A DNA stretch of 42,327 nt, from assembly GCA_029260165.1 (NCBI GenBank), contig JAJDDT010000006.1, forward strand, positions 1 through 42,327. Direction: 5' to 3'. Below are positions 19,063 to 23,583 of this stretch, piece after piece. The stretch is from Phycisphaerae bacterium (lineage in GTDB: Bacteria; Planctomycetota; Phycisphaerae; UBA1845). How positions within the stretch are numbered: position 1 is the first letter of the stretch; every line of letters starts with the position of its first letter. The translations under genes and the position numbers were made by a program. The notes below the pieces were generated by a model. That model worked only from the letters and a program-made list of their open reading frames with translations. It searched no databases and was not told where the DNA came from.

Positions 19063-20127
19063 ATGTTTATCGACGAAGCCGAAATCTACATCCACGGCGG
19101 TGATGGCGGTCACGGATGCGTGAGCTTCCGACGTGAAAAATACGTCCCCATGGGCGGTCCCAATGGCGGGTCGGGCGGCGATGGTGGCGGGGTGTACGCG
19201 GTCGCAACGCCGGGCGTTGAAACCCTTCTCGATTTTTCGGGCAGGCACCATTGGAATGCAAAGAATGGCCTGCCCGGTGAGGGCAAGCAAAAGACCGGAA
19301 AATCCGGAGACGATCTCGATCTCAAACTTCCCCACGGCACCCTGATCTACGATCGTGATACAGGCCTGCTCCTGAAAGACCTCACCCAGCTCGGAGAACG
19401 GGTCTGCATCGCCCCCGGGGGAAAAGGGGGTCGCGGAAACAAAGCATTCGCAACACCAACCCAGCAGGCACCTCAGGAAGCGGAACCCGGAACACCGGGG
19501 GAGGAACGCTGGCTTCGACTGGTCCTGAAACTGATCGCCGACGTCGGGCTGGTCGGATTGCCCAACGCGGGTAAGAGCACGCTATTGGCCAGCACGTCCA
19601 AAGCTGCCCCGAAAATCGCACCGTATCCGTTCACCACGCTCAAGCCCCAACTGGGGATAGCGGAATTACCGGGTTTCCGTCGGATCGTTATCGCGGATAT
19701 TCCGGGGCTGATCGAAGGTGCCCATGAGGGTGCAGGTCTCGGTGACGCTTTTCTAAAGCACATTGAACGAACCCGTGTCATCGTTCACCTCGTCGATCTT
19801 TTCCCACCGGAAGGCGACCCGACACCCGCGGATGCGTACAGGACCATTCGCGAGGAACTGGGGAAATCAAGCCAGACCCTCGCAGACAAACCCGAGCTCG
19901 TGGTCGCCACCAAGACAGACATCGACCCCGACAGCGCATCCGACAAAATCGACGCGTTGAAATCCGATATCGGCAAACCGGTCTCCGCGATTAGTTCCGC
20001 CACACGAGAAGGTTTGGATCAGTTGATGGAGGAAATGTGGCGATTGGTCGCCAGTGAAAAACCGCCGCAGGAACCGGAACCCGTTAAGCAGGGCGTCATT
20101 CCACCACACCTGAGGTCATTTTCATGA
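19063..20127 (+). CDS. obgE: Obg-family GTPase (ribosome assembly)
   Basis: This GTPase works in late 50S assembly and in stress and growth control. The 354-residue protein has the glycine-rich Obg fold first (about 1-158: GGDGGHGCVSFRREKY, GGKGGRGNKAFAT). The G domain follows: GLPNAGKST (165-173), DIPGLIEGAHEG as switch II, a G4 motif reading TKTD instead of the usual NKxD, and SAISS as G5. The C-terminal OCT domain found in some relatives is absent. The G4 Asn-to-Thr change is unusual and may weaken guanine specificity. The stop codon overlaps the coaX start by four bases, so these two are translationally coupled. Confidence 0.96.
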   Translation: MFIDEAEIYIHGGDGGHGCVSFRREKYVPMGGPNGGSGGDGGGVYAVATPGVETLLDFSGRHHWNAKNGLPGEGKQKTGKSGDDLDLKLPHGTLIYDRDTGLLLKDLTQLGERVCIAPGGKGGRGNKAFATPTQQAPQEAEPGTPGEERWLRLVLKLIADVGLVGLPNAGKSTLLASTSKAAPKIAPYPFTTLKPQLGIAELPGFRRIVIADIPGLIEGAHEGAGLGDAFLKHIERTRVIVHLVDLFPPEGDPTPADAYRTIREELGKSSQTLADKPELVVATKTDIDPDSASDKIDALKSDIGKPVSAISSATREGLDQLMEEMWRLVASEKPPQEPEPVKQGVIPPHLRSFS

Positions 20128-20930
20128 TTTCCATCGACCCGAACGCGGAACCATCGAACGCGTCCATCATCGTGATCGATGTCGGTAACCAGACAACCGC
20201 CATCGCAACCTGGCGCGACGGCGAGACCCAAAACATGCAACACCTCGCGACCGGCGAAATATCGTCGATCGGGGGAATCCTCAAGAAAATCACCACGGAG
20301 AAGCTGGACGAACAGTTGGCCGGGGTTGCCATCGCATCAGTCGTGCCTGAAATGAACAGCATCATTCAAACAATTGTCGAGGACGAACACGATCTACAAC
20401 CCCTGTTCGTTGGCCGACAAATTCCGTTTCCGATCGATGTTCTTGTTGATGAACCCACCAGCGTGGGTGTCGACAGAATTTGTGCAGCCGCTGCCGCTTT
20501 CCATTTAAGGAAGGAAGCCTGCGTGGTGGTCGATTTCGGGACAGCCATCACCATCGACGCCGTCGACGACAACGGTGCGTTTATTGGCGGAGCGATCCTG
20601 CCGGGTCTTCGGATGCAATCCAAAAGCCTCAATCGACAGACCGCCCAACTACCCGAGGTGGAAATAGTGAAGCCGGCGGAACCCATTGGCAGGAACACCG
20701 CGAACGCTATACAGGTCGGGGTTTATCATGGTATCGTCGGCGCGGTTCGACACATCGTGGAGGAGTACGCCACGCATTTGGGCCGATGGCTTCCCGCGGT
20801 GGCCACCGGTGGCGATGCGAAATTGCTGGCTGAGGATTGTGGGGTATTCGATGCCATCGTCGAAGACCTGGCCCTCGTCGGTGTCGGATTAGCCTTCGAC
20901 AAGCACCTCAAATGTGGCGTGGTTCTGTAA
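20124..20930 (+). CDS. coaX: Type III pantothenate kinase
   Basis: This kinase phosphorylates pantothenate, the first step of coenzyme A synthesis; the type III enzymes are not feedback inhibited by CoA and usually need a monovalent cation. The 268-residue protein shows the ASKHA-fold motifs DVGNQTTAI (19-27), GVDR (115-118), DFGTAIT (137-143), GGAILPGL (155-162) and TGGDA near the C-terminus. ATG 20124 overlaps the obgE stop (ATGA). The N-terminus is about ten residues longer than in many relatives. The MnmE-like gene starts 16 bases after its stop. Confidence 0.94.
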   Translation: MISIDPNAEPSNASIIVIDVGNQTTAIATWRDGETQNMQHLATGEISSIGGILKKITTEKLDEQLAGVAIASVVPEMNSIIQTIVEDEHDLQPLFVGRQIPFPIDVLVDEPTSVGVDRICAAAAAFHLRKEACVVVDFGTAITIDAVDDNGAFIGGAILPGLRMQSKSLNRQTAQLPEVEIVKPAEPIGRNTANAIQVGVYHGIVGAVRHIVEEYATHLGRWLPAVATGGDAKLLAEDCGVFDAIVEDLALVGVGLAFDKHLKCGVVL

Positions 20931-20946
20931 TCGAAGGGAAAACGTC

Positions 20947-22134
20947 GTGACCGACGTGTCCGGTGACCTGACCGCCGCCCTGATCACCGCCAACACCACC
21001 GGCGCGATCGCCGTCATTCGCATCACAGGCAGGAACGCTCGAAAAGCACTGGATTGTATTTTCACGCCAACCTCCAATCCATCCCCTGTTCAGGACGATT
21101 CGAGATTACTGTTCGGATGCTTCGCAGATGATACGGGCACGATTGACGAGGGATTGATCAGTTTCGCGGAATCCGAAAATGAAGGGGCTGTGGTGGACAT
21201 CAATGTTCATGGCGGACAGCGAATCACCGAACGCATCCTGGCTGCCCTCGCCCGCGCGGGTTGCAAACTGAATGCGGATGACCCCATCGGTGATTCGGGT
21301 TTTGGGCTGGGTTTCGGGGATTGGACGATCGAACGCGAAACCAAACAAGCGCTGGCTTGTTGCCAGACCCGTCGAGCGGTGCGGTTCGTAGCCAAACAGG
21401 CGGACCGACTCAAACAGCACCTCGCGCGGATCGCGAAACAGCCCGATACCGTGAAAATCGAGGAACTGATGAGTAAATCGTCGCCAGGCTTGTTCCTGAT
21501 CAACGGTGCGTCGGTTGCGATTATCGGACCACCCAACGCGGGAAAATCGACGTTGATCAACACGCTGGCGGACCGTTCGGAGACGCTCGTTTCGCCCGAA
21601 CCCGGCACGACGCGGGACTGGACGGAGGTGGCGATCAGTATCGACGGCGTGCCGATTCGCCTGATCGACACCGCCGGGATTCGCGGTGGGGCGGATGATC
21701 TGGAGCGGGAGGCTATGCGTCGCGGATTGGTGCAATCGCACAATGCTGACGTTCAGTTGCTCGTCCTTGATCGCTCGAATCCACTGCCGGTGTCGTTTTT
21801 GGACGATAATGTTGATCTGTTGAATTCTGCGCGGTTGATTGTTGTAGCCAACAAGACTGATCTGCCCAACGGGTGGTCGGCGGTGACGGACGGGTTGTCC
21901 GCGGCTGCATCGTGGACCGAGCGCCTGAAACGGCCGATCGAGATATCGGGACGGACCGGTGACGGCGTTCCCGTGTTGTCGCGGAGAATTTCGGACGTGC
22001 TCGGTGTGGATGCCTGCAACGGTGACGGGGTGATGCTGTTTACCCGGCGGCAGGTCGGTTGGCTTGAAACGCTTCCTGCGTCTGGTAATGTCGACCGGAT
22101 TCGTGAGGCGCTTCTCCGGTATGTCGGGGATTGA
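20947..22134 (+). CDS. Shortened MnmE (TrmE)-like GTPase lacking the C-terminal Cys motif
   Basis: The 395-residue protein is clearly related to MnmE, the tRNA-U34 modification GTPase. It has an N-terminal TGAIAVIRITG stretch (18-28), INVHGG (86-90), and a G domain with GPPNAGKST (194-202), PGTTRD (219-224), DTAGIR (241-246) and NKTD (302-305). MnmE is normally about 450 residues. Missing here are the PGEFTxRAF...DLxQAEA block after the N-domain and the C-terminal FCIGK motif; the protein ends EALLRYVGD. The Cys and folate-side residues used for the chemistry are therefore not visible. GTG 20947 is chosen with AAGGGA 7 bases upstream, right after coaX. It may be a divergent MnmE or a repurposed paralogue. 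Confidence 0.8.
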   Translation: MTDVSGDLTAALITANTTGAIAVIRITGRNARKALDCIFTPTSNPSPVQDDSRLLFGCFADDTGTIDEGLISFAESENEGAVVDINVHGGQRITERILAALARAGCKLNADDPIGDSGFGLGFGDWTIERETKQALACCQTRRAVRFVAKQADRLKQHLARIAKQPDTVKIEELMSKSSPGLFLINGASVAIIGPPNAGKSTLINTLADRSETLVSPEPGTTRDWTEVAISIDGVPIRLIDTAGIRGGADDLEREAMRRGLVQSHNADVQLLVLDRSNPLPVSFLDDNVDLLNSARLIVVANKTDLPNGWSAVTDGLSAAASWTERLKRPIEISGRTGDGVPVLSRRISDVLGVDACNGDGVMLFTRRQVGWLETLPASGNVDRIREALLRYVGD

Positions 22135-22344
22135 TCGACGAGAACCGTCGCCCGTTGCGTGCCTATAATCAGTCCCGGACGGGAAATGGTGTGGGTTGGA
22201 CAAGTCCCGATGCGTCAATGGGTTGTGGTTTTTTGTTGATGCATGGTCACCGGGGCGATACATTACCGCACCTTTGGTGGATGCCTCGCTTTTTCGGATG
22301 GCAGGTCGCGTTTCCGGGTAGGTTTTGGCAGATCGAGTAATTCT

Positions 22345-23583
22345 ATGGCCGGCGAAGACGAATCGCAGCTTGGTCGCAAACTGGTTGATGGTCGCATGGT
22401 GACCGCCGACGAGGTCGCGCTCTGTCAGGAGCGTTGCAGGGAGCTGGCTGAGAACGGCGAGGATATCACGCTCATCAAAATGCTGGTGCGAGAGGGGTAT
22501 GTGACCAAATCGCAACTGGCGCGGATGAATCGCTCGCTGGGCGACGATTCGATGTACAAACCCGCCCAGCAGATTCCCGGTTTTCAAATCATGGCCAAGC
22601 TGGGTCAGGGTGCGATGGCGACGGTTTACAAAGCCCGTCAGCTCAGTCTGGATCGGATCGTGGCTGTCAAGGTCCTGCCGAAACGACTGAGCGAGAATCA
22701 GGAGTTTGTCGATCGTTTTTATCGCGAAGGTCGCGCGGCTGCTCAGTTGAATCACCCGAACATCGTTCAGGCGATCGATGTCGGAGAAGCCGGCGGGTAT
22801 CACTACTTCGTGATGGAGTTTATCGACGGGAAGACTGTTTACGACATGATCCAGGAGAAGCGGGGCGTCCCGGAAGCGGATGCGATTCGTGTTATTCTGC
22901 AGACGGCTGAGGCGTTGGAACATGCGCATGCCCGCGGGTTTATTCACCGTGATGTCAAGCCGAAGAACGTCATGATCACGCAGTCAGGTGACGTGAAGCT
23001 GGCGGACATGGGATTGGCTCGCGAGGTGAGTGACTACGAAACGGCGCAGTCCGAGGCGGGGCGTGCGTATGGGACGCCTTATTACATCAGTCCCGAGCAG
23101 ATTCGCGGCGAGATCAACATCGATTTTCGCGCGGATGTCTATTCGCTGGGGGCGACCTTTTACCACATGGTGACCGGGGCGGTGCCTTTTGACGGATCGA
23201 CCCCGTCGGCGGTGATGCACAAGCATCTGAAAGAGGAGTTGCCACCGGCGGATCACAAGAACACCAGTTTGTCGGCGGGCGTTGGCGAAATCATCGAGGT
23301 GATGATGGCCAAGCGTCGGGACGAGCGCTATTCGACGACGCGCGATCTGATTGTTGATTTGAAATCGGTGTCGGAGGGAGGCCCACCGTTTCAGGCACGA
23401 AAACAGTACGACGATCAGACGCTGGAGACGTTGGCGTCTTCGGGGGTGACGGTGACGTCGGCGGCTGCGGAGGATCTGGATCCCCGTCTGCGCGGTGACG
23501 GGCCTAATGTGACCGTCGTGATGCTGATTATTTTGCTGATCCTGTCAATTCTCGGCAATTTCGCGCAGATGCTGTTGGGATAG
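22345..23583 (+). CDS. Membrane-anchored Ser/Thr protein kinase (PknB-like)
   Basis: The 412-residue protein has an N-terminal helical region of about 70 residues (LVDGRMVTADEVALC, EGYVTKSQLARM). A Hanks-type kinase domain follows: GQGAMATVYKA (88-98), Lys109 (VAVKVL), Glu128, HRDVKPKN (201-208) and SPEQIRG (249-255). The metal-binding DFG is DMG (221-223), a tolerated change, so it is predicted active. After a linker, one C-terminal membrane helix (about 386-408) leaves almost nothing outside the cytoplasm, so it lacks the usual external sensor. ATG 22345 has only a weak ribosome site. TATAAT at 22164-22169 could be its -10, but no good -35 precedes it. Confidence 0.92.
   Translation: MAGEDESQLGRKLVDGRMVTADEVALCQERCRELAENGEDITLIKMLVREGYVTKSQLARMNRSLGDDSMYKPAQQIPGFQIMAKLGQGAMATVYKARQLSLDRIVAVKVLPKRLSENQEFVDRFYREGRAAAQLNHPNIVQAIDVGEAGGYHYFVMEFIDGKTVYDMIQEKRGVPEADAIRVILQTAEALEHAHARGFIHRDVKPKNVMITQSGDVKLADMGLAREVSDYETAQSEAGRAYGTPYYISPEQIRGEINIDFRADVYSLGATFYHMVTGAVPFDGSTPSAVMHKHLKEELPPADHKNTSLSAGVGEIIEVMMAKRRDERYSTTRDLIVDLKSVSEGGPPFQARKQYDDQTLETLASSGVTVTSAAAEDLDPRLRGDGPNVTVVMLIILLILSILGNFAQMLLG

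Follow-up and report, generated by a model that had tools for sequence, protein, structure and literature searches.

The gene at 20947–22134 of the window, by which we mean the whole 42,327-nucleotide stretch of Phycisphaerae bacterium DNA that was analyzed (GenBank assembly GCA_029260165.1, contig JAJDDT010000006.1), encodes a paralogue of the GTPase MnmE that has lost the end of its N-terminal domain with the PGEFT block, the hinge with the helical domain, and the FCIGK-bearing helix of the C terminus. Together with its counterparts in other planctomycetes it forms one separate clade of MnmE paralogues. The protein is of MnmE ancestry and, while failing the features that define MnmE, probably works within the MnmE–MnmG system, to judge from sequence and occurrence. 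We consider it close to an even prospect that it is a dedicated GTPase subunit of the MnmE–MnmG enzyme of Planctomycetota that modifies U34 of tRNA, in which it would pair with the canonical MnmE of the same genome. To our knowledge, the MnmE dimer is a homodimer in every organism studied to date.

Domain content of the window protein

The open frame starts at GTG 20947, as in the earlier note, and encodes 395 amino acids (Table 1). Codon 20944 is GTC, and an in-frame GTG at 20914 is a possible alternative start that would give a protein of 406 residues. The residue numbers used below follow sequence P0001, in which residue 1 is the codon at 20944. On the minus strand, a 613-codon open frame (21106–22947) lies opposite the gene and is probably a by-product of base composition.

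Table 1. Features of the window around the MnmE-like paralogue
Feature	Position	Strand	Basis or remark
obgE (GTP1_OBG), upstream of coaX	19063..20127	+	domain search
coaX (type III pantothenate kinase, PF03309), directly upstream of the paralogue	20124..20930	+	domain search
MnmE-like paralogue gene	20947..22134	+	ORF, motifs, Pfam
Partial TrmE_N domain (profile 3-102 of 117)	20974..21270	+	equivalent of E. coli R23 and HGG kept, PGEFT block absent
Short linker standing where MnmE has the hinge and the first half of its helical domain	21271..21504	+	model: partly helical, P0001 residues 129-187
MnmE-type G domain	21511..22008	+	Pfam, alignment
Segment C-terminal of the G domain	22009..22131	+	
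Protein kinase gene (Pkinase domain), downstream of the paralogue	22243..23583	+	domain search

The earlier note had described an intact G domain, a missing folate-side block and an end without FCIGK. The G domain is indeed intact: GPPNAGKST, PGTTRD, DTAGIR and NKTD were all found, and Pfam MMR_HSR1 is matched with 79.7 bits. The P-loop carries N198 and K201, switch I carries T222, T223, R224 and D225, the DxxG motif is D242–G245, and R247 and E254 of switch II are the equivalents of E. coli R275 and E282. With the P-loop Asn, the switch I Thr and Asp, DxxG and the switch II Glu all present, the motif set is that of a potassium-type, dimerization-dependent TrmE-like GTPase, which the protein would therefore be expected to be. 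The absence of FCIGK was borne out as well, neither FCxGK nor PGEF[ST] occurring in the protein or in any of the six frames of 20500–23200. The description of the folate side needs correction in one part. The PGEFT block, the hinge and the helical domain are gone, with MnmE_helical (PF12631) reaching 12.0 bits against a cut-off of 40.1, but the N-terminal domain is not entirely lost since TrmE_N is still matched by residues 11–109 (49.2 bits).

A frameshift in the reads that restored the missing parts, or an equivalent Cys and folate site elsewhere in the protein, would have changed this picture. Profiles of the two helical halves gave chance-level scores only against the six frames of 20500–23200 (best E 0.23), and we therefore reject a hidden frameshift or assembly error; the Cys and folate parts are absent from the window protein and are located in a second MnmE of the same genome. 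The protein resembles MnmE/TrmE, the tRNA U34 cmnm5 GTPase (PRK05291, TIGR00450; structures 1XZP, 3GEE, 9HIP), in its order of N domain followed by G domain and in sharing the P-loop Asn, the TTRD of switch I and the Arg and Glu of switch II. It differs in having no PGEFT block, helical domain or FC(I/V/L)GK end, and in scoring under both MnmE equivalog cut-offs (156.4 bits against 380 and 115.4 against 252.6).

The canonical MnmE and MnmG of the same genome

The remainder of the genome (4.4 Mb in 119 contigs) contains a canonical MnmE on contig 56, a protein of 462 amino acids with PGEFT present, an FCIGK end and a PF12631 score of 134.5 bits; contig 74 encodes an MnmG (813.8 bits). Since a standard MnmE and MnmG occur in the same genome, the window protein is not the only MnmE of the organism but a divergent additional copy, and the suggestion of the earlier note that this lineage does the chemistry differently is not supported in that form. 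The canonical protein (L001 1489–2877) likewise fails to reach either NCBIfam equivalog cut-off (289.2 against 380 and 228.0 against 252.6), so the cut-offs are strict for the canonical copy too, and automatic pipelines may name it loosely.

Distribution of the paralogue

A match to the paralogue was obtained in each of the 60 relatives searched, although the best matches were weak (E 1e-10 to 1e-15) in four relatives of lower completeness (G007, G017, G027, G041), where they are probably other GTPases, and a fifth (G035) was also matched weakly (1e-20, residues 154–375). A wider scan covered GTDB 220 with one genome per species, selecting loci by a P-loop pattern and by their similarity to the paralogue. 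Among the pattern matches listed, with the best 80 of 541 relatives retained, 10 loci were assigned to the paralogue by their top match, all of them in planctomycete-group records; here we take record titles of Phycisphaerae, Phycisphaerales, Sedimentisphaerales and Candidatus Kuenenia to be Planctomycetota. The other 70 of the best 80 are nearer to canonical MnmE, 69 of them ending in FC(I/V/L)GK and one being cut by the end of its contig. When the whole genomes behind 32 scan loci were considered, the paralogue was found in all nine planctomycete genomes, and the 23 genomes of other phyla had one MnmE-length frame each and otherwise G-domain matches; in one of these (G382) the MnmE-length frame was matched only over the G domain and beyond. 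One scan locus (L065, 4971 onward), in a record titled Euryarchaeota archaeon, encodes a bacterial-type MnmE ending in FCIGK and is possibly a mis-binned or mis-named MAG.

We then consider a panel of 80 planctomycete genomes of at least 90% completeness, which consists of the genome of the window and 79 from a sample of 294 genomes of the phylum, taken at every third entry over most of the list and selected by hand for the remainder. MnmE_helical was found in 72 of the 80 and MnmG in 71, the latter missing in the eight genomes without MnmE and in G142, which has MnmE and the paralogue and gave no MnmG match. The paralogue is present in all 72 MnmE-positive genomes. Sixty-eight sequences were extracted, and the remaining four stand outside the residue counts given below: three (G076, G094, G118) are matches to a broader profile separate from canonical MnmE, whose apparent absence was due to the first profile having missed them, and one (G073) is a contig-end fragment beside coaX (28.0 bits). 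For the canonical proteins 71 were counted, G289 being dropped as split over contigs and G346 kept though cut at its N end.

Eight genomes from several families, 90–94% complete, gave no match to MnmE or MnmG (G070, G079, G103, G106, G133, G139, G157, G166). The paralogue was found in none of these eight, in which no match reached the first 98 profile positions and the GTPase matches resemble Der and similar GTPases. By this shared presence and absence the paralogue would belong to the MnmE–MnmG system.

Phylogeny

To place joint presence and absence on the phylum, we used a tree of Der from 40 genomes, of which 27 have MnmE and the paralogue and 13 have neither. The negatives were eight genomes tested with PF12631 and MnmG plus five sister genomes (G144, G098, G113, G122, G074) assigned from profile A3 alone; the positives were 26 panel genomes plus G131, the latter also judged on profile A3 alone. 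The five extra negatives and G131 were picked from families seen earlier. Joint presence and absence requires four changes of state on this tree (4–6 in the bootstrap, with strongly supported branches forcing at least two), both states occur within a single family (f22), and the direction of change is presumably loss. The joint absence on the Der tree therefore indicates that the paralogue tracks MnmE and MnmG and not coaX.

A tree of MnmE sequences was built by a quick method from 34 of the 68 paralogues, drawn at random with that of the window fixed, 32 of the 71 canonical proteins and 18 MnmEs of other phyla. The paralogues fall on one side of a branch with SH-aLRT support of 99 and the canonical proteins on one side of another, also with 99, a split for which one old duplication would be the simplest reading. 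The exact root of the paralogues is unsure because several of their branches are very long: the terminal branch exceeds 1.5 changes per column in seven paralogues, that of the window included (1.57). Such fast evolution is what a decaying duplicate would show, and a functionless gene or an assembly artefact is the reading to which it might lead. We regard this as highly improbable. The frames are open and the G motifs conserved in 68 genomes across the phylum, all in one clade, and there is no hidden frameshift in the window; conservation on this scale refutes the functionless reading in practice.

Longer paralogues retain traces of the lost parts. Weak PF12631 matches were obtained in five of them (G274, G184, G220, G199, G163), a sixth (G112) is similar, and none of the six ends in C.GK. 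Because these longer paralogues keep a weak PF12631 match and no C.GK, the comparison suggests that loss of the relay helix preceded that of the helical domain. The pairwise distances of paralogue and canonical protein correlate beyond those of Der, the single control protein used (partial r 0.62, 0 of 2000 permutations, 21 genomes).

Gene neighborhood

The block of obg, coaX, paralogue and protein kinase (19063–23583 in the window) is preserved across much of the order. In 20 compared regions of the order the paralogue occurs in all 20, coaX is nearby in 18 and a homologue of the kinase in 16. Of the 71 panel genomes carrying both genes, 51 have coaX and the paralogue no more than 1.5 kb apart, a count in which contig ends may conceal some cases. 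This linkage could be read to mean that the protein is an independent potassium-activated GTPase, acting as a homodimer in another process such as ribosome maturation, CoA supply or another task of the obgE–coaX group, and that its likeness to MnmE is a matter of ancestry. The poor conservation of folate residues points the same way: the equivalent of E. coli R23 is kept in 22 of 63 paralogues (62 plus that of the window, 20 of the 62 coming from close relatives; the canonical set consisted of 20 plus that of the same genome, and one locus, L163, was dropped and later replaced by L295).

We nevertheless consider an independent GTPase unlikely. CoaX was found in 79 of the 80 panel genomes (missing in G118), including all eight that lack MnmE, MnmG and the paralogue. 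The adjacency fails in 20 of the 71 genomes, on which ground we rejected a function tied to coaX. Since both observations make the partnership doubtful, the coaX/obgE neighborhood is probably not a functional partner of the paralogue. The alternative raised in the earlier note, a GTPase repurposed in a coaX/obgE gene group, thus survives in part: the protein does belong to a separate paralogue clade, and the group in which it had been placed probably does not account for its function. A further point against an independent GTPase is that the catalytic pair of MnmE is changed in the canonical proteins of this phylum and unchanged in the other phyla sampled.

Division of conserved features between paralogue and canonical MnmE

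The two proteins differ consistently in what they keep. The C.GK terminus is present in 71 of 71 canonical proteins and in 0 of 68 paralogues, that of the window included, and PGEF[ST] in 56 of 71 and 0 of 68, respectively. With profiles of domain pieces built from 18 MnmEs outside the phylum, we scored 67 pairs of paralogue and canonical protein. The N domain has a median score of 26.4 in the paralogue versus 75.7 in the canonical protein, which scores higher in 63 of 67 genomes; the G domain has 110.2 versus 88.6, with the paralogue ahead in 59 of 67. The two helical halves score near zero in the paralogue and are higher in the canonical protein in 67 of 67. Relative to the MnmEs of other phyla, the canonical proteins reach 75.7 of 127.3 for the N domain and 87.8 of 145.2 for the G domain. 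Because the two scores are reduced alike, the G domain of the canonical protein as a whole is not singled out.

At the catalytic residues the difference is more specific. At the position of E282, 55 of the 68 paralogues have Glu and 5 have Asp, and of the 71 planctomycete canonical proteins 13 have Glu and 29 have Asp, the alignment column being in part uncertain for the latter because their switch II has indels. The residue is Glu in 52 of 52 MnmEs of other phyla that were not used for the profiles, a set chosen by P-loop pattern and similarity to the paralogue and hence biased toward well-kept G domains. The equivalent of R275 is kept in 49 of 68 paralogues, 7 of 71 canonical proteins and 50 of 52 proteins of other phyla. 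In the genome of the window, Arg247 and Glu254 of the paralogue stand opposite Asp and Met of the canonical protein. Both catalytic residues are kept in the MnmEs of solved structures (E. coli, T. maritima, C. tepidum). Neighboring positions show less of a division: A272 is kept in 49 of 68 paralogues and 49 of 71 canonical proteins, L274 in 50 versus 48, N335 (N or T) in 42 versus 59, and K336 in 47 versus 51.

For E. coli MnmE, the mutant data given in PMC3695501 include no tRNA modification with E282A, 51% with R275A and full activity with E282D. Since Asp at 282 works in E. coli, we rejected the notion that the canonical G domains are dead, and from their residues they appear weakened and not proven dead. 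With Glu or Asp accepted at 282, the full GTPase motif set is found in 59 of 68 paralogues and the full hydrolysis set in 39 of 71 canonical proteins. Where the canonical protein is incomplete, 25 of 30 genomes have a complete paralogue, and where it is complete, 33 of 37 do; neither copy is complete in 5 of the 67 genomes and the canonical copy alone in 4. Completeness of the two proteins is thus not anticorrelated across these 67 genomes of the phylum.

The residues by which MnmE G domains bind nucleotide and meet are kept on both sides. T251 is found in 68 of 68 paralogues, 71 of 71 canonical proteins and 52 of 52 MnmEs of other phyla, D253 in 68 of 68, 70 of 71 and 52 of 52, and the T250–D253 interface residues and the P-loop Lys in nearly all paralogues and canonical proteins. 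With T251, D253 and the P-loop Lys conserved, GTP binding and pairing are still expected of both G domains. The shared interface, together with the same pattern of co-occurrence, would also suit a paralogue homodimer that acts in trans on MnmE–MnmG, for example on the MnmE G domains, and replaces no MnmE subunit. This appears improbable, as the domain that the paralogue has retained is the one described in PMC12397908 as the constitutive dimerization domain of MnmE, which makes direct pairing simpler.

A paralogue that does pair with MnmE might be a regulatory or inhibitory partner that tunes or blocks U34 modification rather than a required subunit. Strict co-occurrence with MnmE would be expected of such a partner, and its loss of the relay helix fits, because a mixed dimer would then have at most one productive arm. 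We judge this to be quite unlikely, since a protein that is in every MnmE-positive genome of the panel with a usually complete G domain seemingly exceeds what tuning would need, and the weakened catalytic pair of the canonical protein suggests dependence on the paralogue.

Structure and relation to the E. coli complex

The AlphaFold2 model of the window protein has a mean pLDDT of 82.2 and a pTM of 0.70, and its best full-length structural matches are MnmE chains. Z scores against the full MnmE chains listed range from 20.1 to 17.8; Era, Der and other matches cover essentially the G domain, with Era at Z 17.8 equal to T. maritima MnmE at Z 17.8. Query-normalized Foldseek TM scores are 0.49 for 9hip_A, 0.52 for 9hiq_A and 0.33 for 9hip_B.

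In the E. coli complex as described in PMC12397908, the MnmE dimer sits asymmetrically on MnmG, with one subunit peripheral and the other contacting MnmG, and the contacting subunit straightens its hinge helix so that the FCIGK helix swings from the folate pocket to the FAD pocket. If the chain letters follow the subunits of that paper, 9hip_A and 9hiq_A are the peripheral form, and the better match of our model to them would be weakly consistent with a peripheral position of the paralogue, weakly because free MnmE has the same form. The role proposed for the paralogue is that of subunit A of this dimer (9HIP/9HIQ), which lies off MnmG; the E. coli dimer differs in that both subunits are the same protein and the relay helix is intact (PMC12397908).

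A planctomycete with two MnmE paralogues has been mentioned. In Tuwongella immobilis both were detected, in the same proteome fraction, S3, and they may be the two types described here; the passage of PMC8567305 concerned gives no domain analysis, distribution or function for the second. In the literature that we searched, which left most subscription journals aside, we found no description of the planctomycete paralogue beyond that mention.

A proposed heterodimeric MnmE

Our preferred reading, in which the paralogue is a GTPase subunit paired with canonical MnmE, would begin with a duplication of MnmE no later than the base of the phylum. Of the two products, the canonical one would have retained the folate pocket, the hinge, the helical domain and, at its C terminus, the FCIGK relay extending into MnmG, and its G domain would have lost the water-orienting Glu/Arg pair in most lineages. 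The paralogue would have retained a reduced N-terminal dimerization domain and a potassium-type G domain that is usually complete; its folate-side block, hinge and relay helix would have been lost. In the resulting heterodimer the canonical subunit would correspond to subunit B in the E. coli cryo-EM complex and touch MnmG. Because the paralogue has no hinge or swinging parts and has kept a dimerization domain and a G domain, it may be a permanent peripheral subunit, like subunit A, that supplies productive GTP hydrolysis to the paired G domains. That planctomycete MnmE is an obligate heterodimer, with folate binding, relay and MnmG contact on one subunit and productive GTP hydrolysis on the other, is a possibility that we put forward tentatively, judging it on balance slightly doubtful.

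The role of GTP hydrolysis in MnmE, and the need for two hydrolyzing or two relay subunits, are hard to study in a homodimer. If this phylum has split the two tasks between two proteins, the question could be tested by mixing wild-type and mutant subunits. If the proposal is true, a heterodimeric MnmE would be an ancestral trait of the Planctomycetota and a natural separation of two MnmE functions, and it would provide a role for a gene that is present in all of the MnmE-positive planctomycetes of our panel.
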